Positions 7,475 to 48,953 of a DNA stretch of 64,000 nucleotides are shown in pieces. A program made the position numbers and the translations under genes. The DNA comes from an uncultured Desulfobacterales bacterium. Lineage in GTDB: Bacteria > Desulfobacterota > Desulfobacteria > Desulfobacterales > SpSt-501. The notes beneath the pieces are model-generated. The model searched no databases and was not told the DNA's origin. It worked only from the letters and a program-made list of their open reading frames with translations. The stretch lies in the NCBI GenBank assembly GCA_938048455.1, contig CALIUY010000019.1:1-64000 (forward strand), written 5' to 3'. Each line of letters opens with the position of its first letter. Within the stretch, counting starts at the first letter, position 1.

Positions 7475-8335
7475 GTGAGGAAAGGGCGGGAAGGGAAATC
7501 CATCGGCGCCCATGTCAGCGCGGCCGGCGGGGTGAACCAGGCGCCCTTGAACGCGAGCCGGATCGGGGCGACCGCTTTCGCCCTTTTCACCAAGAACCAG
7601 CGGCGGTGGCAAGCAAGGGCGCTTGGCGAAGCGGAGATCCAGAAGTTCAGAGAAAACTGCCGGCAGGCGGGCTTTGCTCCGCGGCAGATCCTCGCTCATG
7701 CCGGCTACCTCATCAACCTCGGGCATCCCGAGCGGGAGGGGCTCGAGAAATCGCGCGCGGCCCTCCTCGACGAGATGCGCCGCTGCCGGCAACTGGGGAT
7801 TTGCGCCCTGAACATCCACCCCGGAAGCCACCTCGGCCGGATCGCGGAAGCCAAGTGCCTCGCCCGGATCGCCGCCTCGATCAATCGCGCCTTGGAAGAA
7901 GTCCCCGAAGTGAGGGTCGTGATCGAGAACACGGCGGGCGAGGGCGGCCATCTCGGCCATCGTTTGGAACACCTGGCCGAGATCCTCGAGCGCGTCTCCG
8001 ACCGCTCGCGGGTCGGCGTTTGCCTCGATACCTGCCACGGGTTTGCCGCGGGCTACGATCTCGCGAGCGAGGAGGGCTACGCGGCGTTTTTTTCACGCTT
8101 CGCTTCCGTGGTGGGCTTTGCGTATCTTGCGGGGCTGCACCTGAACGACAGCAAGAAACCCCTGGGGAGCCGCATCGACCGCCACGCCGGAATCGGCGAG
8201 GGGGCGCTCGGGCTCGAGGCTTTCCGGCGCCTCATGAAAGACCCGCGTCTGGACGGCATCCCCCTGATTCTCGAGACCCCGGACCCGGCCCGCTGGGCCG
8301 AGGAAATCCGTCTTTTGCGCGAAATGGCGCAGTAG
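7475..8335 (+). CDS. nfo: Endonuclease IV (apurinic/apyrimidinic endonuclease)
   Basis: A 286-residue AP endonuclease that incises abasic sites and 3'-blocked ends in base excision repair. The frame is open far upstream, but the GTG at 7475 has GGAGG seven bases before it and begins exactly where the family begins (SIGAHVSAAGG). Zinc-site motifs are all present: NIHPGSH, VIENTAGEGG, CLDTCHGFAAGYD, LHLNDSKKPLGSRIDRHAG and LETP near the end. The length equals the usual 280-290 residues. It follows the repetitive secreted protein by about 95 bases and ends a rightward run, so it may share transcription with that gene, though no functional link is apparent. Confidence 0.93.
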   Translation: MRKGREGKSIGAHVSAAGGVNQAPLNASRIGATAFALFTKNQRRWQARALGEAEIQKFRENCRQAGFAPRQILAHAGYLINLGHPEREGLEKSRAALLDEMRRCRQLGICALNIHPGSHLGRIAEAKCLARIAASINRALEEVPEVRVVIENTAGEGGHLGHRLEHLAEILERVSDRSRVGVCLDTCHGFAAGYDLASEEGYAAFFSRFASVVGFAYLAGLHLNDSKKPLGSRIDRHAGIGEGALGLEAFRRLMKDPRLDGIPLILETPDPARWAEEIRLLREMAQ

Positions 8336-8627
8336 GGGACGCCGCGAGGGCCGATTTCGGCTACGGCTCGAACTCCAGTGTGCGACTGCACTCGGCTTTT
8401 ATGGCCTTGTCGATCGGAAGGGATACCGCCGTCATGAGGCTTTAACTTCCGTCGGCGGGGATCTCTTCCCAGAGCCTCTCGATTGCCGTATGCTTGTTTT
8501 CGATGGGTCATTTCCGTTTCTGCCGGTTTGGGGTTGCGGAGAACCGGTTACGGACTTGTCCTCCATGGAAAAGGGCGGATTGTATGGCGCGCACTTCGGT
8601 GTGGAACAGAATCTTGAGTGAGGGCCG

Positions 8628-12445: not shown

Positions 12446-14053
12446 ATGCGGAACACCCTGCCGTTTGTTGTTCTCATCGCCGCGGGGCTGCTTGCGGCCG
12501 AAGCGGCGGCCGAGGAGTGCTGGACGGCGACCCTTCAGGTAGCCGTCGAGGAGAGCGCGCAGCGCGAGGGGAGAAAGAAAAACGAGGTTTCCCGCGAAAG
12601 CTTTCGGGTGCAGGGGGAGGGCGAGGTTCGTTTTCTTGCCGGAGGGGGAAAAACCGGGATTGTCCACCAGAGCCTTCAGGGCAGCTGGGAGGGGACGATG
12701 TTTCGGGAAACCTCCTGCGGGGTCCACGAGGGGAAAATCAGCGGGCTGTTGACCGAGGGGGTGATGCGCAACGAGCAGATCCACACCGCCTTTTGGCCCG
12801 TGCTCATGGAGAGTCACGCCACGGTGAAGGCCGTGAAGGGCTGCCGCCAGGAGGCCATCCCCGCCGTTTCGGAAACGGAAGAGCGCGCCGACCCGCGGTT
12901 CCACGATATCGTCCACCCAAACCTGGGCAAACTGGTTTCCCTTTGCAAGAAAGCCCGCGCGTATCCGATGCTCGGGGAATGCCGTACGACGGCCGATGAG
13001 ATTTCCGGGCATTTGACGCTCACGGAGACCTCGCCGGCGACGGGTGAGCCGGCGACGCTGAATTGGGGGATTCCGGATTATCGCTACCGGACACGCTACA
13101 GCTGGTCGGCGCGGCGGGTCCCGTGCGCCTGTACGGCCACCGTGGTTCACCTGGTCGGGGAAGCGCAATTGAACGGCCGCCCGCTCGGTAAGGGGATCGA
13201 GTTCAACCTGAGCGGGGCGACGATCGAGACGGTCGGCAGGAGCCAGGTCGTGATCGAAACCGCCGATCATGTTCAGATCCGCGTCAAACCCCGGACGATG
13301 ATTGATCTCACCCACCTCTGTCGGGAGATCGAAACGGAGCGGGATCGAAGTCCCCGCCTGATCCGGAATCTCTCCGGCGCTTTGTATTTGATCCTAAAAA
13401 AAATCGACGCTGAGGACGCCCCCGAGAGGTTGGGGATCAGGACCGGCGGCGGTGTTCGGGGGAGACTGCGCCGGGAAAGAACGCTGCTCGCCGCGGCCGG
13501 ATTCCCGCCGGGAACGGTTTCGATGCCCGTTTTCCCGGCCGAGGCGGGAGCATCCGAAGAGCGGTCGGAAATCGACGAAACTGCGGCGCGTCAGGCTCCG
13601 GCGGCCGTTTTCTGCCGCTACCGGCCGGAGGAAGGCGATCTCTTGGTCGAGGCATTGCGGGGAACCCTTACGGTACGCGACTCCGCCGGCGGTACGTTTC
13701 TCCTGCGGGAAGGCGAGGTCTTTCGCCGGCGCTGGTCTCCAGAAATCGACCCGGCAAAAATGCCGACGATCGAAGCCTGGCTCCAGCCCCATAGGGGACG
13801 TCCATTCATATATTATTATTTTACTTCCTGCCCGTTGCCAACCTTGAGGAGATGCGGCGACAGCCGAGAGGAGTCCCATGGAGATTTCTTCTCTGGAAGT
13901 TGTTTCGGTCGTCGGGATCCTATCCGTTTTGTTTGCCGTCGTCGTGCTGCTCGTCATCACGGCGCGCCGGAAAACCCTGGAACCCGAGGCCTTCGAAAAA
14001 AGACTGCGCGATCTCGAGCAGTTTCACGAGCGCACCGAGCGCACCCTGCGTGA
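12446..14053 (+). CDS. Exported protein of unknown function whose 3' end is altered by a repeat
   Basis: A 535-residue open frame starting at an ATG preceded by GGAGG five bases away. It begins with a signal peptide (cleavage near AAEAAAEEC). The first 440 residues look like a genuine protein with scattered cysteines and a segment around residues 395-430 (GDLLVEALRGTLTVRD, FLLREGEVFRR) like the beta-repeats of FecR-type domains. From codon 449 on, the frame runs through a half copy of the GGGGACGTCCATT element and then out of frame into rmuC, which starts at 13878; the last 85 residues are basic and low quality. The original stop was probably at or just after the repeat insertion. The true protein is likely about 450 residues plus an acquired tail. 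I recognise no full-length family. Confidence 0.65.
   Translation: MRNTLPFVVLIAAGLLAAEAAAEECWTATLQVAVEESAQREGRKKNEVSRESFRVQGEGEVRFLAGGGKTGIVHQSLQGSWEGTMFRETSCGVHEGKISGLLTEGVMRNEQIHTAFWPVLMESHATVKAVKGCRQEAIPAVSETEERADPRFHDIVHPNLGKLVSLCKKARAYPMLGECRTTADEISGHLTLTETSPATGEPATLNWGIPDYRYRTRYSWSARRVPCACTATVVHLVGEAQLNGRPLGKGIEFNLSGATIETVGRSQVVIETADHVQIRVKPRTMIDLTHLCREIETERDRSPRLIRNLSGALYLILKKIDAEDAPERLGIRTGGGVRGRLRRERTLLAAAGFPPGTVSMPVFPAEAGASEERSEIDETAARQAPAAVFCRYRPEEGDLLVEALRGTLTVRDSAGGTFLLREGEVFRRRWSPEIDPAKMPTIEAWLQPHRGRPFIYYYFTSCPLPTLRRCGDSREESHGDFFSGSCFGRRDPIRFVCRRRAARHHGAPENPGTRGLRKKTARSRAVSRAHRAHPA
13793..13822 (+). repeat. Half copy of the GGGGACGTCCATT palindromic element (copy A)
   Basis: AGGGGACGTCCATT followed by an AT-rich stretch (CATATATTATTATTTTA) matches the left arm of the two full palindromes at 15446 and 17377. 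The right arm is missing. It lies within the open frame of the upstream exported protein and about 60 bases before rmuC. Elements of this design look like REP sequences mobilised by RAYT transposases; none is encoded in the window. Confidence 0.7.
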
Positions 14054-15437
14054 GGAGCTGGGACGAAACCGGGAAGAATCCGCGGCCGTCCAGCAGCGGC
14101 TCAGGCAGGAAATCGCTTTCGTGATCCGCAAGTTCGGGGAGGGGCTCCAGCAGCAGCTCGAGCGTTTGACCCGCGGTCTGGGCGAGCGCCAGGATCTGCT
14201 TCGCGGCGCCGTCGAAGAGCGGCTTGCGCGAATGCTCAGGGAGGCAGCCGAGGGGCTCGATCGGCTGCAGGGAGCGTTTACGGGCGCAAGCGGCCGGATG
14301 CGCGAGGAGACAGCGCGGGCGCTCAAGTCCTTCAACGATTCGGTCCTGCAGGCGGTGACGGCGATGAGTGAGCTTCAGAAAACGGAGTTTGCGGCTTTCA
14401 CGGCCCAGCTGGGGCGGCTTTCCGAAGCGAATGCCCAACGCATGGAGTCCTTGAGGCAGGCGGTCGAAGAAAAGCTCGGCCGGATCCAAGAAGAAAACCG
14501 CATGCGATTGGAAGAGATGCGCCGCACCGTGGAAGAGAAACTCGAGGGGACGCTCGAGAAGCGGCTCGGGGAGTCCTTTCGACAGGTGAGCGAGCGTCTG
14601 GAACAGGTGCACCGCGGGCTGGGCGAGATGCAGATGCTTGCGGCCGGGGTGGGCGATTTGAAACGCATGCTCGCCAACGTGAAGACGCGCGGGACCTGGG
14701 GCGAGGTCCAGCTGGGGGCTCTGCTTTCCGAAGTGCTCACGGCGGAGCAGTTCGCCGCAAACGTGACGACAAAGGAGGGCGGCGAACGGGTGGAGTTTGC
14801 GATCCGCCTCCCGGGGCGCGGGGAGGAGGAGACGGTTCTCTTGCCGATCGATGCGAAGTTCCCGCTCGAGGATTATCTTCGCTTGACCGAGGCTCAGGAG
14901 CGTGCGGATGCCCCCGCTGCGGAGGAGGCATCGCGCGGCCTGGAGATACGTATCCGGCAGTGTGCGGCGGATATCGCCCGCAAATACCTGAACCCGCCGC
15001 GGACGACCGATTTTGCGATCTTGTTTCTGCCGACCGAGGGCTTGTTCGCCGAGGTGATGCGCCGCCCCGGTCTTGCCGAGGCGGTCCAGCGAGAGAGCCG
15101 GGTCGTGATCGCCGGGCCCACGACGCTGTGGTCGATTCTGACGAGTTTGCAGATGGGTTTCCGCACGCTTGCGATCCAGAAGCGCTCCAGCGAGGTCTGG
15201 AATCTGCTTGCCGCGGTGAAGACCGAGTGGGGTCGCTACGGGGAGATCCTGCAACGGGTGCAAAAGAAGCTGCAGGAAGCCTCGAGTACCATCGAAAAGG
15301 CCGAAAGACGAAGCCGGGTGATAGGGCGTAAGCTGCGGGAGGTCGAGGAGCTCCCGGCAGATGAAGCGCGCGGCCTGCTGAGGCTTGAGGCCGCCGAAGT
15401 CAAGGACTCCTCCGATTCTAACCTTTTCCGATTTTAG
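13878..15437 (+). CDS. rmuC: DNA recombination protein RmuC
   Basis: A 519-residue protein of the RmuC family, implicated in limiting inversions at short inverted repeats. It has an N-terminal transmembrane helix (residues 8-27), a long coiled coil (about 35-260, rich in Glu/Arg/Leu heptads such as RLEEMRRTVEEKLEG) and the conserved nuclease-like domain (GTWGEVQLGALLSEVLT, then ERVEFAIRLPG, LLPIDAKFPLEDYLRL and TDFAILFLPTEGLFAEVMRR). The ATG at 13878 has AGAGGAG just upstream. Notably, this inversion-suppressing gene is bracketed by copies of an inverted-repeat element: a half copy before it and a full palindrome nine bases after its stop. It is probably transcribed on its own or with the upstream gene. 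Confidence 0.92.
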   Translation: MEISSLEVVSVVGILSVLFAVVVLLVITARRKTLEPEAFEKRLRDLEQFHERTERTLREELGRNREESAAVQQRLRQEIAFVIRKFGEGLQQQLERLTRGLGERQDLLRGAVEERLARMLREAAEGLDRLQGAFTGASGRMREETARALKSFNDSVLQAVTAMSELQKTEFAAFTAQLGRLSEANAQRMESLRQAVEEKLGRIQEENRMRLEEMRRTVEEKLEGTLEKRLGESFRQVSERLEQVHRGLGEMQMLAAGVGDLKRMLANVKTRGTWGEVQLGALLSEVLTAEQFAANVTTKEGGERVEFAIRLPGRGEEETVLLPIDAKFPLEDYLRLTEAQERADAPAAEEASRGLEIRIRQCAADIARKYLNPPRTTDFAILFLPTEGLFAEVMRRPGLAEAVQRESRVVIAGPTTLWSILTSLQMGFRTLAIQKRSSEVWNLLAAVKTEWGRYGEILQRVQKKLQEASSTIEKAERRSRVIGRKLREVEELPADEARGLLRLEAAEVKDSSDSNLFRF

Positions 15438-15445
15438 TCGCTTTT

Positions 15446-15508
15446 AGGGGACGTCCATTTTTATATCATTATAAATTTTCTTAAGTGATATATAAATGGA
15501 CGTCCCCT
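15446..15508. repeat. Full palindromic GGGGACGTCCATT element (copy B)
   Basis: A 63-bp inverted repeat. The left arm AGGGGACGTCCATTT at 15446 pairs with AAATGGACGTCCCCT ending at 15508; pairing continues through TATATCA/TGATATA, so the arms are about 25 bp with one or two mismatches around an AT-rich centre. It sits between the rmuC stop and the start of the sugar phosphorylase gene and could fold as a strong hairpin in RNA or single-stranded DNA. The sequence and shape match REP-type, RAYT-mobilised elements (inference). Confidence 0.8.
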
Positions 15509-15531
15509 CTTTACTCTTTATAAAATATAAA

Positions 15532-17364
15532 ATGGACCGTGAACGCACTTTTTATGACGAGCGGCCCGACTATAGCCGGCCGCGCCTTGCCATCCCGGAG
15601 TTCTTCCGACTCCGGGCGGCGGAGAAGCTCGCCTTCCTCTACGGGAAGCGAGGGGCGGCGATTTGGCTGCCCGAGCTCGAGCGGGTCATCCAGGTGCACC
15701 ACGCCTGCAAGCCGCCCGCGATGCTCGCCAAGGAGCTGGCCTACGACCCGCGCCGGCGCTTTCACCAAGAGCACATCCTGCTCATCACCTACGGCGACAT
15801 GGTGCGGGGAAGGGGGCCCACACCGCTTGCGGTCCTCCGACGTTTCGTCGAGCGCTATGCCGGGGATGCAATCAAAACGATCCATCTTCTCCCATTTTTC
15901 CCCTACTCCTCGGACCGCGGCTTTGCCGTGATCGACGACCGACGGGTGGATGAGCATCTGGGCTCTTGGGAGGACATTTATGCCGCCAAGCGGGGCTACG
16001 ACCTTATGTTCGATGCGGTCCTGAATCACGGCTCCGCGCGAAGCGAGCTCTTTCAGGAGTTTCTGAATGGAAATCAGCATGTTAAGGAGTTTTTCATCGC
16101 CTTCCGCTCGCCTGACGAGCTTACCCTCGAGCAGCGGCGAAAGATCTTCCGCCCGAGGACCAACGACATCCTCACGCGGTTTGAGACCATCGAAGGTCCC
16201 CGCTGGGTGTGGACCACCTTTTCGCCCGACCAGGTGGACTTCAATTTCCGCAACCCCGCCGTTCTCCTGCGGATCATTGAGAGCCTCCTTTTCTATATCC
16301 GCAAAGGCGCCGATCTCCTGCGGCTCGATGCGGTCCCTTACATTTGGGCTGAACCCGGGACGGAAAGTGTACACCTGCCGCAGACCCATGAAATCGTGAA
16401 ACTGTTGCGCGACGTGGTCGATCTGGCGGCTTCGGGCGTTGCGCTCGTGACTGAAACCAACGTGCCCCATGCCCAAAACGTCGCCTACTTCGGCAACGGC
16501 TGCGACGAGGCCCACCTCGTCTACAACTTCGCCCTGCCGCCGCTTGTGCTGCAGGCCTTTTTCACCAGGGATGCCGGCGCCCTGTCGCGCTGGGCGATGA
16601 CGATGGATCCGCCCTCGGAGGAGGCGGCGTTTCTGAACATCCTCGACACCCATGATGGGATCGGGTTGCAGGGGGTACGCGGGATCCTCCCGGCGGGGGA
16701 GATCGACTTCATCGCCGAGGAGGCCCGGAAGCGCGGGGCGCTCATTTCGTACAAGTCCACGGAGGAGGGGGGCCGCGAGCCCTACGAAATCAACAGCACC
16801 TGGTGGAGCGCGCTCAACCCGGGCACAGAGGAGGAGGGAGTCGGGATGCAGATCGAGCGCTATCTCGCCTCCCGTGCAGTGGCCTTGGTGTTGCGCGGTG
16901 TGCCCGGAATCTACATCCACGGGGCCCTCGGCACCGCCAATGACTACGGGGCCGCCAAGGCCTCGGGCGTGAACCGCGACCTGAACCGCGGCATCATCGA
17001 AGAGGAGCTTGTCGCAGTCGAGCTCCGGGACCGGGGTTCGAAGCTCTCGCTTCTCTTCCGCGGCTGGCGTGATCTCCTGCTCGTGCGTCGCCGGGAACGT
17101 GCTTTCCATCCCCGCGGGCCGCAGCGGGTACTCATGATCTCGCCGAAGGTTTTCGCCCTGCTGCGGACCTCGCCGGAAGGAGATGAATCGGTGCTGACGC
17201 TGACGGGGGTGAGCCCGGTGGAGACCCGACTTCGCATTTCGCTCGCAGAGGCAGGCTTACGGGGTGGCGAGTTCCGCGATCTTCTGAGCGGGCAGATCGT
17301 TCCGGCCGCGGACGACACGCTCTCGCTCACCCTTTCCCCCTATGGACGCCTTTGGCTAAAATAA
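15532..17364 (+). CDS. GH13_18 sugar phosphorylase (sucrose or glucosylglycerate phosphorylase type)
   Basis: A 610-residue alpha-amylase-fold enzyme that should split a glucoside with phosphate to give glucose 1-phosphate. Family landmarks are present: HLLPFFPYSSDRGF (about 118-131), FDAVLNHGS, DQVDFNFRNP, the nucleophile in LLRLDAVPYIW (Asp266), the acid/base in LVTETNVPH (Glu308) and the stabiliser in LDTHDGIG (Asp375). The Asp-Tyr-Gly stretch in GTANDYGAAK and the overall order fit the sucrose phosphorylase subfamily; many environmental members act on glucosylglycerate, a compatible solute, so the substrate is open. An in-frame start at 15496 lies inside repeat B; ATG 15532 is preferred, though no ribosome site is visible. 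Palindromic elements lie directly on both sides of the gene. Confidence 0.88.
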   Translation: MDRERTFYDERPDYSRPRLAIPEFFRLRAAEKLAFLYGKRGAAIWLPELERVIQVHHACKPPAMLAKELAYDPRRRFHQEHILLITYGDMVRGRGPTPLAVLRRFVERYAGDAIKTIHLLPFFPYSSDRGFAVIDDRRVDEHLGSWEDIYAAKRGYDLMFDAVLNHGSARSELFQEFLNGNQHVKEFFIAFRSPDELTLEQRRKIFRPRTNDILTRFETIEGPRWVWTTFSPDQVDFNFRNPAVLLRIIESLLFYIRKGADLLRLDAVPYIWAEPGTESVHLPQTHEIVKLLRDVVDLAASGVALVTETNVPHAQNVAYFGNGCDEAHLVYNFALPPLVLQAFFTRDAGALSRWAMTMDPPSEEAAFLNILDTHDGIGLQGVRGILPAGEIDFIAEEARKRGALISYKSTEEGGREPYEINSTWWSALNPGTEEEGVGMQIERYLASRAVALVLRGVPGIYIHGALGTANDYGAAKASGVNRDLNRGIIEEELVAVELRDRGSKLSLLFRGWRDLLLVRRRERAFHPRGPQRVLMISPKVFALLRTSPEGDESVLTLTGVSPVETRLRISLAEAGLRGGEFRDLLSGQIVPAADDTLSLTLSPYGRLWLK

Positions 17365-17376
17365 CCGATAACTGAT

Positions 17377-17437
17377 AGGGGACGTCCATTTATATATCAT
17401 CAAGATGAATAAAGTGATATAAGAATGGACGTCCCCT
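17377..17437. repeat. Full palindromic GGGGACGTCCATT element (copy C)
   Basis: A 61-bp inverted repeat with arms AGGGGACGTCCATT at 17377 and AATGGACGTCCCCT ending at 17437, extended by ATATATCA/TGATATAA-like inner pairing. It lies 12 bases after the phosphorylase stop and overlaps the 3' end of the convergent CYTH gene, contributing that gene's last codons and stop. It may act as a bidirectional terminator between the two convergent genes. Confidence 0.8.
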
Positions 17438-17870
17438 GTAGGGTGGAGTTGAAGTAGCGAGGGTCGCCGGTGACTTCGCGGCCGAGCCACGGGGGACGGG
17501 GGAAGGCCTCGTCGGGGTGGGAAAGCTCGATCTCGGCCAGGACGAGTCCCGCGTGGCGGCCATGGAACTCGTCGATCTCCCAGCGGAAGCCTCCGAAGGG
17601 GACCACGTGGCGGGTCTTCTCCAACACCGCCCCTTCGCAAAGGTTAAGGAGCGCCTCGGCTTCCCGTGGGGGGATCTCGTATTCGAATTCGGAGCGGACC
17701 GCCCCCCGGGTGAGCCCCTTGATCGCCAGAAAAGCCCGCCCGCCGGCGATGCGCACGCGCACGGTGCGCTCCGGGTCGCGGTTGAGATAACCTTGGCGTA
17801 GCCGGATCCCCCCCTCGCCGCGCCAGCCGTCCCCCACCACCAAGAACTTGCGCTCGATTTCGATTCCCAT
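17400..17870 (-). CDS. CYTH-domain protein (class IV adenylate cyclase / triphosphate tunnel metalloenzyme)
   Basis: A 156-residue protein of the CYTH superfamily, which hydrolyses triphosphates or acts on inorganic polyphosphate in an eight-stranded tunnel. The N-terminal EIERKF signature is at residues 3-8. Further tunnel residues appear in IRLRQGYLN, RTVRVRIAGG, AFLAIKG and the WEIDEFHG and LAEIELSHPDE strands. The ATG at 17870 is chosen over upstream in-frame starts because the signature begins there. The normal ending GDPRYFNSTL is followed by about 12 residues (GTSILISLYSS) encoded by palindrome C, which also provides the stop. Specific activity (thiamine triphosphatase, tripolyphosphatase or cyclase) cannot be assigned. 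Confidence 0.88.
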   Translation of the reverse strand: MGIEIERKFLVVGDGWRGEGGIRLRQGYLNRDPERTVRVRIAGGRAFLAIKGLTRGAVRSEFEYEIPPREAEALLNLCEGAVLEKTRHVVPFGGFRWEIDEFHGRHAGLVLAEIELSHPDEAFPRPPWLGREVTGDPRYFNSTLQGTSILISLYSS

Positions 17871-47143: not shown

Positions 47144-48953
47144 CCGGCTCCGCGGCGGAGAGCTCCCCCGGGGACTTCCGGCGGCGCGAAGGCGCTTTTT
47201 CCGCAGCGGCCGATGTCCCGCCGCCGACCAAGGCCACGAGTTCCCCGACGAGGCCGCTCAGGGTCTCGGCCTGGTGGCTCATCTCGCTTGCTGCGCCGGC
47301 CGATTCTTCGGCGCCGGCGGCGTTCTGCTGGACGCTGCGATCCATTTCGGCGACCGCGCGGTTGATCTGCTCGATTCCCTGCGCCTGCTCGTCGGAGGCG
47401 GCGGCGATTTCGCGCAGCAGCTCCCCCACCTTCCGCGTGCGGTCGGCCACCGCGGCGAACTCATCGTTGGTCTGCTTCACCTCGGCCGCTCCCTCGCGGA
47501 TGGTGGCCACGGTGCTTTCGATCAGACCGGCCGTGTTGCGCGCCGCCTCGGCCGCCCGCAGCGCAAGCGCCCGGACCTCGTCGGCGACCACGGCGAAGCC
47601 CGCCCCCGCCTGACCCGCGCGGGCCGCCTCCACCGCGGCGTTCAACGCCAGGAGGTTGGTCTGGAAGGCGATTTCGTCGATCGTCTTGATGATGCGCGAG
47701 GTCTCCTCGCTCGAACGGGTGATCTCGGCCATGGCGCGGTTGAGACGCGTCATCGAAGCGCCGGAGGTTTCAACGGCCCGGTTCGCCTCTTGCATGAGTC
47801 GGTCGGCCTCGCGGCCGTGATCGGCGTTCTGCCGGGTCATCGAGGACATCTCTTCGAGCGAAGAGGTGGTCTCCTCGAGCGAGGCCGCCTGAGCCGCGGA
47901 TTGCTGAGCGAGGCTCTGGCTCGCCGTGGACACCTGGGCCGCGGCGGCGCTCACCTCGGATGCGCCCCGGTTGAGCCGGGTCACGATGCCCTGGATGGGC
48001 CGCTCGATCTCGCGCCGCACCATCCAGGCGATCAGCCCGGCCACGGCCGCGGCGACCGCCAGCACGACCGCGGCGAGGATGTTGCGCAATTGCCGGGCCG
48101 GGGCGAGGATTTCGGACATCGGCTGCAGGACGGCGAGCGACCAGCCGGCGGAGGCGATGGTCCCGAAGCTCAGCAGGTATTCGCCCTCTTCGAGAGAGAC
48201 GGTGAGCATGCCTTCGCCTCCGGCGCCGAGGGCTTCGGCGAGCGGGGCCAGGCCGGGGACGTCCTTCAGGCCCTGTTTCATCACCCGCGTCGCCTCCGGG
48301 TGGCTGATGAACCGGCCCTTGGCGTCCACGATGCACACGTAGCCTTTCTCGCCGACCCGAATGCGGGAGGCCATTTCGTTCAACGCGCTCAGCCGCCATC
48401 CGAGAGCCGCGACCCCCATCGTGCGCTCCTGATGGGTCAGGGCGGTTGCGATCGTAAGCACGCCGCCGCCGTCGGCCGCCGCGTGAACCTCGCCGATGAC
48501 CGGCTCCCGCCCCCCCCGGGCGCGGCGGTAGACCTCCTCGGAGGCGACCGTCTTGCCCTTGAAGGCGCCCTTCACCGTGTCGCCGACCACCGTCCCTTGG
48601 TCGTCGGTCACGTAGAAGAAGGCATAGGTCTGGGAATCGTGGAACACGGTCGAGTTCATGTTCAGCTTGAAGTCGGCGAGATCGTAGATGCCGCTGTCGG
48701 CGATCGACTTGATCATGTCGACGAGGGTCGCATCCCGCAGGGCGGCGTTTTTGAGCAGATCGGTCTGCTCGCGCACGATCTGGGTGATCTGCCCGGTCAC
48801 CACCGCGCGCATGTCTTCGAGCCCTTCGCGGGCGAGACGTTCCATGGCTTTCGAGGACCACAGGACGCTGAAGGCGCCCACCCCCAGCAGGGGCAGGGCG
48901 AGCAGGACGAGGCCTCCGAAGACGAGTTTTTTCCCTAAACTGAACCGGCTCAT
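47121..48953 (-). CDS. Methyl-accepting chemotaxis protein with periplasmic Cache domain
   Basis: A 610-residue chemoreceptor. A transmembrane helix at about 12-32 is followed by a periplasmic double-Cache-like sensor (about 35-285, with [19 protein letters not shown] typical of Cache strands), a second helix at about 290-313, a HAMP-like segment and the signalling hairpin. The tip reads [20 protein letters not shown] then [20 protein letters not shown], the highly conserved CheA/CheW contact. Residues like [20 protein letters not shown] are typical of methylation helices. The C terminus has no CheR-docking pentapeptide. No other chemotaxis genes are nearby; the ligand is unknown, though small organic acids and amino acids are common for this sensor type. 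Confidence 0.93.

Follow-up and report, generated by a model that had tools for sequence, protein, structure and literature searches.

Dispersed inverted ends in a Desulfobacterales genome as probable non-autonomous copies of a TIRYT-type transposon

The palindromes found in the window, which is the whole 64,000-nucleotide stretch of DNA analysed here, are very probably non-autonomous copies, solo or in MITE-like facing pairs, of the ends of a TIRYT whose transposase gene lies at C48 of the same genome. What we observe directly is a family of ends, a matching transposase, a rule by which ends face each other, conserved positions, tip duplications and, in related elements, a shared flank. We assign them to the TIRYT/TIRtron group (Di Nocera 2013; Quentin 2018, subclass 2.1); they are neither REP/BIME elements nor terminators.

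Results

Elements of the window

The core GGGGACGTCCATT has five exact matches within the window (13794+, 15447+, 15495-, 17378+ and 17424-), and the sole further match with at most two mismatches is at 48255. This bears out the original prediction of two palindromes and one half copy, with exact cores nowhere else in the window. The half copy is a single end on the plus strand (13793..13819), made of AGGGGACGTCCATT plus CATATATTATTA with the tip 5'-outward; its orthologue in the sister species G003 is the end at C23:6406. The first facing end pair is a 63-nt hairpin (15446..15508) between rmuC, its left neighbour (13878..15437, plus strand; Pfam RmuC, E 2.7e-75), and an alpha-amylase-family gene (15496..17364, plus strand; Pfam Alpha-amylase, E 2.8e-18) that stands between both hairpins. 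The ORF of the latter opens at 15496, inside the hairpin, and a start near 15532 is more likely. In G003 the orthologue of this hairpin, C23:8203-8261, carries a tip duplication (CAATTAGGGGACG, twice). The second pair is a 61-nt hairpin (17377..17437) between the alpha-amylase-family gene and a convergent CYTH-domain gene (17400..17870, minus strand) whose ORF extends into it, and an orthologous pair is present in G003 at C23:9871/9976. A possible decayed tip, TAGGGGACG, lies at a stop codon (8335..8341, plus strand; placed by alignment to G003, with the coordinate taken via the gene end), where G003 holds a fuller end, GGGGACGTTGATT, at C23:1355.

Both hairpins have arms of 23 nt, with complementarities of 96% and 91% and spacers of 17 and 15 nt. 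Folded as single-stranded DNA they reach -21.0 and -19.7 kcal/mol (z of -11.0 and -7.9; 0 of 200 shuffles equal), and the half copy at 13793 gives no such fold (z -0.3).

A dispersed family with conserved positions

The genome of the window (G000; 3.38 Mb, 64 contigs) contains 37 exact copies of the core, compared with 0 for a reversed control pattern in the same 3.38 Mb, so the element is a dispersed family and is not unique to this locus. One of the 37 cores (C7:114262), which lies in coding sequence and has no AT-rich tail, was taken as a chance match. With one- and two-mismatch cores that have an AT-rich tail included in the stretches examined, we counted 41 ends in G000 and 55 in G003; one G000 end with a poor core (L175:1707) was left out. 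The consensus of the ends is A-GGGGACGTCCATT-NNN-(A)TAT-YR, with the tip pointing outward.

Eighteen of the 41 G000 ends form nine facing pairs. When close neighbours of opposite orientation are considered in both genomes, 21 of 21 face each other and none stand back-to-back, and the outer lengths are 59-337 bp. A hairpin forms only from two inverted ends that point towards each other, which places the elements in the TIR/TIRYT type. About 10.5 kb of G003:C1 (L131:18018 to L132:8679) holds three facing pairs separated by genes; the G000 counterpart of this stretch has a single facing pair with an outer length of 335 bp.

Positions of the ends are largely common to the two species. Within 400 bp of G003-aligned sequence lie 38 of the 41 G000 ends, and 35 of these 38 mappable ends have a G003 end of the same orientation at most 350 bp away, compared with 127 of 4594 random positions. 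Solo ends, which are unable to make hairpins, are likewise conserved. With 35/38 mappable ends common to both, no movement between G000 and G003 was seen. The comparison of empty sites that the original prediction called for gave no clean empty site, and the ends present only in G003 have unalignable flanks in G000. Thirty one-to-one pairs of orthologous ends were hand-picked from the position mapping. Substitutions occur in them at 5 of 390 core sites, 50 of 90 NNN sites and 0 of 90 TAT sites, and each flank column from -20 to -3 differs in 13-24 of the 30 pairs. The core is kept either by selection or by constant renewal through the transposase; host-level selection, for instance on a protein-binding site, may be at work.

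The transposase and its homologues

Pfam Y1_Tnp matches two genes of G000, one at C48 (E 2.4e-10, over the cut-off) and one at C20 (E 4.3e-9). The expectation that a transposase acts from elsewhere is answered by C48:210-1217, a Y1_Tnp/RAYT-type gene for 335 aa flanked by ends of the same family at 100+, 153+ and 1229-. It is present in single copy and is the sole close transposase for the element in G000. NCBIfam REP_Tyr_transpos matches the protein with an E of 4.8e-19, which is under the cut-off of that model. N59-H60-x-H62 and Y119 are invariant in 21 of 21 homologues, and Y119 is the presumed catalytic tyrosine. The C-terminus resembles DnaA domain IV (profile match to 2z4r, E 1.2e-6; Bac_DnaA_C, E 5e-4, under cut-off), and Bac_DnaA_C is matched at E of at most 0.01 in 16 of 21 homologues. 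A fold search with the AlphaFold2 model (pLDDT 84.6) gave as top match 4er8, a RAYT-REP hairpin complex (E 4.2e-6), followed by ISDra2 and IS608; the DnaA DNA-binding domain 3pvp was also among the matches. Sequence and model point to a putative Y1/HUH nuclease acting on single strands, a member of the TnpA-REP superfamily whose C-terminus would bind DNA in the manner of DnaA domain IV.

Homologues of the C48 type are found in 42 of the 58 genomes searched, G000 included, and those with names come nearly all from MAGs or isolates of the Desulfobacterota type ("Deltaproteobacteria", Desulfobacterales and kin), so the host itself probably belongs there as well. The G003 orthologue is 86% identical and has the same 3' neighbour, so we consider the locus to be inherited vertically. 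At 36 of the 42 transposase loci the gene lies between paired inverted ends, for the most part GGG(G)ACG ones, and such ends occur at 57 of 74 loci of named relatives. The approximately 15 nt that follow GGG(G)ACG vary among copies and match between the two ends of one copy. Left-right identity is 0.905 within a copy, inflated by the choice of pairs by similarity, versus 0.464 between copies, and a copy's own right end is the best match in 32 of 36 cases; L050, L104, L105, L110, L122 and L130 are left out of this test as they have no convincing pair.

Tip duplications

Some ends carry an exact tandem repeat of the flank together with the start of the tip. Such repeats were found at 14 of 86 ends in 40 loci of the order (controls 55/24632), at 10 of 96 ends in G000 and G003 (control positions 51/26233) and at 19 of 112 ends in 74 named loci (control positions 16/8661). 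Six named loci identical to ones already used were left out (L205, L207, L210, L238, L263 and L275). The background rate of tandem micro-duplication at control positions is about 0.2%. Among non-end GGGAC sites of the first set, 3 of 92 matched, each of them the inner copy of a duplication at a genuine end (L098, L120). The usual duplicated unit in G003 is 6-9 nt of flank with GGGGAC(G). Since the duplication at the G003 orthologue of hairpin 15446 is missing from the window, it is probably recent. Assembly error is an unlikely cause, because tip duplications are also present in the complete genome of Desulfosarcina alkanivorans. The micro-duplications suggest scars of ongoing cutting. We found no report of tip duplications or of a carried flank for such elements in the open PMC papers searched. 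At L295 (G058:C1:6922077-6922173), the right end of a TIRYT element has its final 97 bp repeated in tandem, an enlarged tip duplication.

The moving unit and its flank

Recent copies of related elements in two other genomes indicate what moves together. D. alkanivorans has four copies of one element within 40 kb, in the same orientation and about 100% identical over 1109 bp; outside the tip they have GAAAGTTA (left) and GAACCTTA (right) in common and differ further out. G054 has eight copies of at least 1 kb in 3.849-3.885 Mb, again in one orientation, and three more elsewhere. The sequence outside the G054 tips is largely constant (AGTATA left, n=14; CAGGTAT right, n=12), and past it come a G-run and then, from about -12, random sequence. 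In both genomes, 6-8 nt outside the tip are common to copies with 98-100% identity, and past about -12 these copies diverge. The simplest reading of these alignments is that the element would take about 7 nt of its former flank along and insert beside a G-run; the mobile unit seems to be larger than the repeat. In G000 and G003 a G-run beyond the flank was not seen. When motifs near the tip (CC, CT, CA) were counted there, C stood at -6 in 47 of 96 ends and CA at -6/-5 in 24 of 96, which is no more than suggestive of a cut-site motif. The 7 nt outside the tip agree at 6 or more of 7 positions in 26 of 820 and 59 of 1485 pairs of G000 and G003 loci, with 3-16 pairs for adjacent windows, and this sharing may partly be AT bias. 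L283, L284, L285 and L291 (G054:C1:3849425-3894552) are TIRYT copies and fragments, mostly 98-100% identical and in one orientation over 45 kb. The one-orientation arrays of G054 and D. alkanivorans (four copies in 40 kb) suggest local, strand-biased hopping.

A possible mechanism can be proposed. The C48 protein would recognise A-GGGGACGTCCATT-NNN-(A)TAT in single strands and mobilise end copies in trans. It would cut a few bases beyond the GGGG tip, and a short donor flank would thereby go along with the unit. Tandem copies of the flank with GGGG(ACG) might be left when cutting and re-joining at the tip fail or recur. Insertions would persist close to the 3' ends of genes; there the tip (TA|G) can give a stop codon. 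We infer the trans-mobilisation by the C48 protein, its chemistry, the position of the cut and the reason for core conservation from these patterns.

Gene 3' ends and a possible host function

According to gene calls made with our own hexamer script, 56 of the 96 tips of G000 and G003 point towards the 3' end of an outside gene. Of these 56 tips, 40 are within 20 nt of the gene end, and 21 complete a TAG stop codon, whose G is the first base of the element. Those 21 tips, at offset -1, had suggested targeting of natural stop codons, an idea set aside after comparison with outgroup C-termini: one gene ends near its natural stop, one about five residues short, and one, a dus-like gene, reads through. 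The insertions examined against outgroup proteins are at natural ends or a few codons earlier. We prefer insertion tolerated near 3' ends, with TA|G providing the stop, over stop-codon homing. In the dus-like gene (L171:9828-10820) and its G003 counterpart (L133), read-through of the element end gives the C-terminal tail LGDVHSYIAWDPD in both species.

The closeness of tips to gene 3' ends, together with a core that changes at 5/390 positions against about half or more of those in the flanks, would also suit repeated host-functional sites such as terminators, mRNA 3' stabilisers or protein-binding sites, with the transposase ends alike by descent. We consider this explanation unlikely. The original prediction had named a normal terminator kept in distant relatives as the contrary case; the position is indeed kept in the sister species, but of the seven intrinsic terminator sites predicted (a GC-rich stem, then a T-run) none is at a window hairpin, and an Rfam search gave 0 matches. 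The conservation of solo ends does not fit a host hairpin, the ends of related transposases differ among copies and agree within a copy as transposon ends would, and the tip duplications suggest cutting.

Gene turnover at the elements

Comparison of gene order between G000 and G003 shows adjacency lost at 14 of 23 junctions that have an element versus 17 of 122 others (Fisher p 6e-6), and with intergenic gaps of at least 100 bp at 11 of 14 versus 14 of 52 (p 0.001); junctions lacking usable G003 sequence (4 element, 82 other) were left out. The gene between the window hairpins is of the alpha-amylase family in G000; its place in G003 is taken by an unrelated 503-aa gene, and neither gene is present in the other genome. 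These data speak for ends at gene 3' ends as boundaries of gene cassettes, attC-like points where the transposase exchanges whole genes. Such a reading is quite unlikely, as the breaks may come from ordinary repeat recombination or from elements and foreign genes landing in permissive gaps, neither an excised circle nor a moved cassette was seen, and a 639-aa gene whose location differs between the species has no bracketing ends in G003. The link between elements and breakpoints is an association, which repeat recombination, permissive sites or the transposase may cause. The fullest form of the cassette idea is very doubtful: cassettes lying between facing or direct ends would be exchanged at the HUH-transposase ends beside gene 3' ends while the ends themselves stay, and the duplications and the carried flank would be traces of cutting a few bases beyond the recognised motif. 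If true, it would be an attC-like exchange system driven by a different enzyme class. Between two same-orientation ends at G000:C27:14391-28946 (L178:14391 to L179:12946) lie about 14.5 kb whose flanking genes are adjacent in G003.

Discussion

The non-autonomous copies of a TIRYT can be compared with known systems as excerpts of the cited papers describe them. In a TIRYT/TIRtron the Y1 transposase lies between terminal inverted repeats that bear no relation to GTAG, and TIR copies are dispersed as singles, dimers and groups; GGGGWSAS is common to some TIRs only and does not define the group (Di Nocera 2013, PMC3733652). Here, too, the Y1 gene is flanked by non-GTAG inverted repeats and copies are dispersed singly and paired. 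Unlike GGGGWSAS, the tag is GGGGACGT/C, which fits it at 6 of 8 positions, and tip duplications and a carried flank do not appear in the excerpted text of that paper. The available sections of Quentin 2018 (PMC6006769) describe TnpA-REP subclass 2.1 (RAYT group 1) as having no REP-like sequences near the genes and leave the link to TIRYT for confirmation. The long protein with its C-terminal Bac_DnaA_C/HTH domain is shared with this subclass, as is the probable identity with TIRYT; unlike the subclass as described there, ends and dispersed copies are found together.

With REPIN-RAYT systems, going by excerpts of PMC3116915 and PMC8049555, the family shares a single-copy transposase, short paired non-autonomous copies and long persistence, but it has no GTAG palindrome, and its unit is an inverted end and not a hairpin of its own. 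Although the elements are short, dispersed, extragenic and in inverted pairs, with a Y1 transposase flanked by copies, the REP/BIME label of the original prediction, that is, classical elements of a GTAG-type RAYT, is scarcely tenable, as the foot has GGGGACGTCC in place of GTAG/GT[AG]G, a single end such as the half copy lacks a hairpin, and the transposase, of the long type, has a DnaA-like C-terminus and falls in subclass 2.1, for which no REP-like sequences are reported in those sections of Quentin 2018. REPs with an unpaired CGTC tag ending an 8-9 bp stem were also considered and rejected; there is no such tag at the foot, and CGTC sits within the paired stem of the hairpins.

The fold search with the model relates the protein to the Y1/HUH fold of IS200/IS605 (IS608, ISDra2). 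IS200/IS605 and TnpA-REP cut outside the recognised structure (PMC8266576, in part), which the carried flank of about 7 nt recalls. IS200/IS605 elements have no terminal inverted repeats according to the portion of PMC2817692 available, whereas the ends here are inverted.

New here are tips at gene 3' ends, kept positions, tip duplications, the carried flank and breaks at elements. Going by the available sections of Quentin 2018, the published record leaves even the association of DnaA-tailed transposases with end repeats unconfirmed. The family supplies dozens of ends that can be aligned, orthologous copies from both species, and autonomous copies that duplicated recently. The predictions are that the cut falls a few bases beyond GGGG, that flank travels with the unit, and that a tip duplication is the footprint of cutting, which would make the duplication a simple genomic reporter of nicking. 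The connection between such ends and gene turnover is testable.

The second Y1 gene of the genome (L050, G000:C20:15607-16560), for which no paired ends were found, has a sister-species counterpart in a similar context (L130, G003:C15:138514). Common to both species, it is possibly a domesticated copy.
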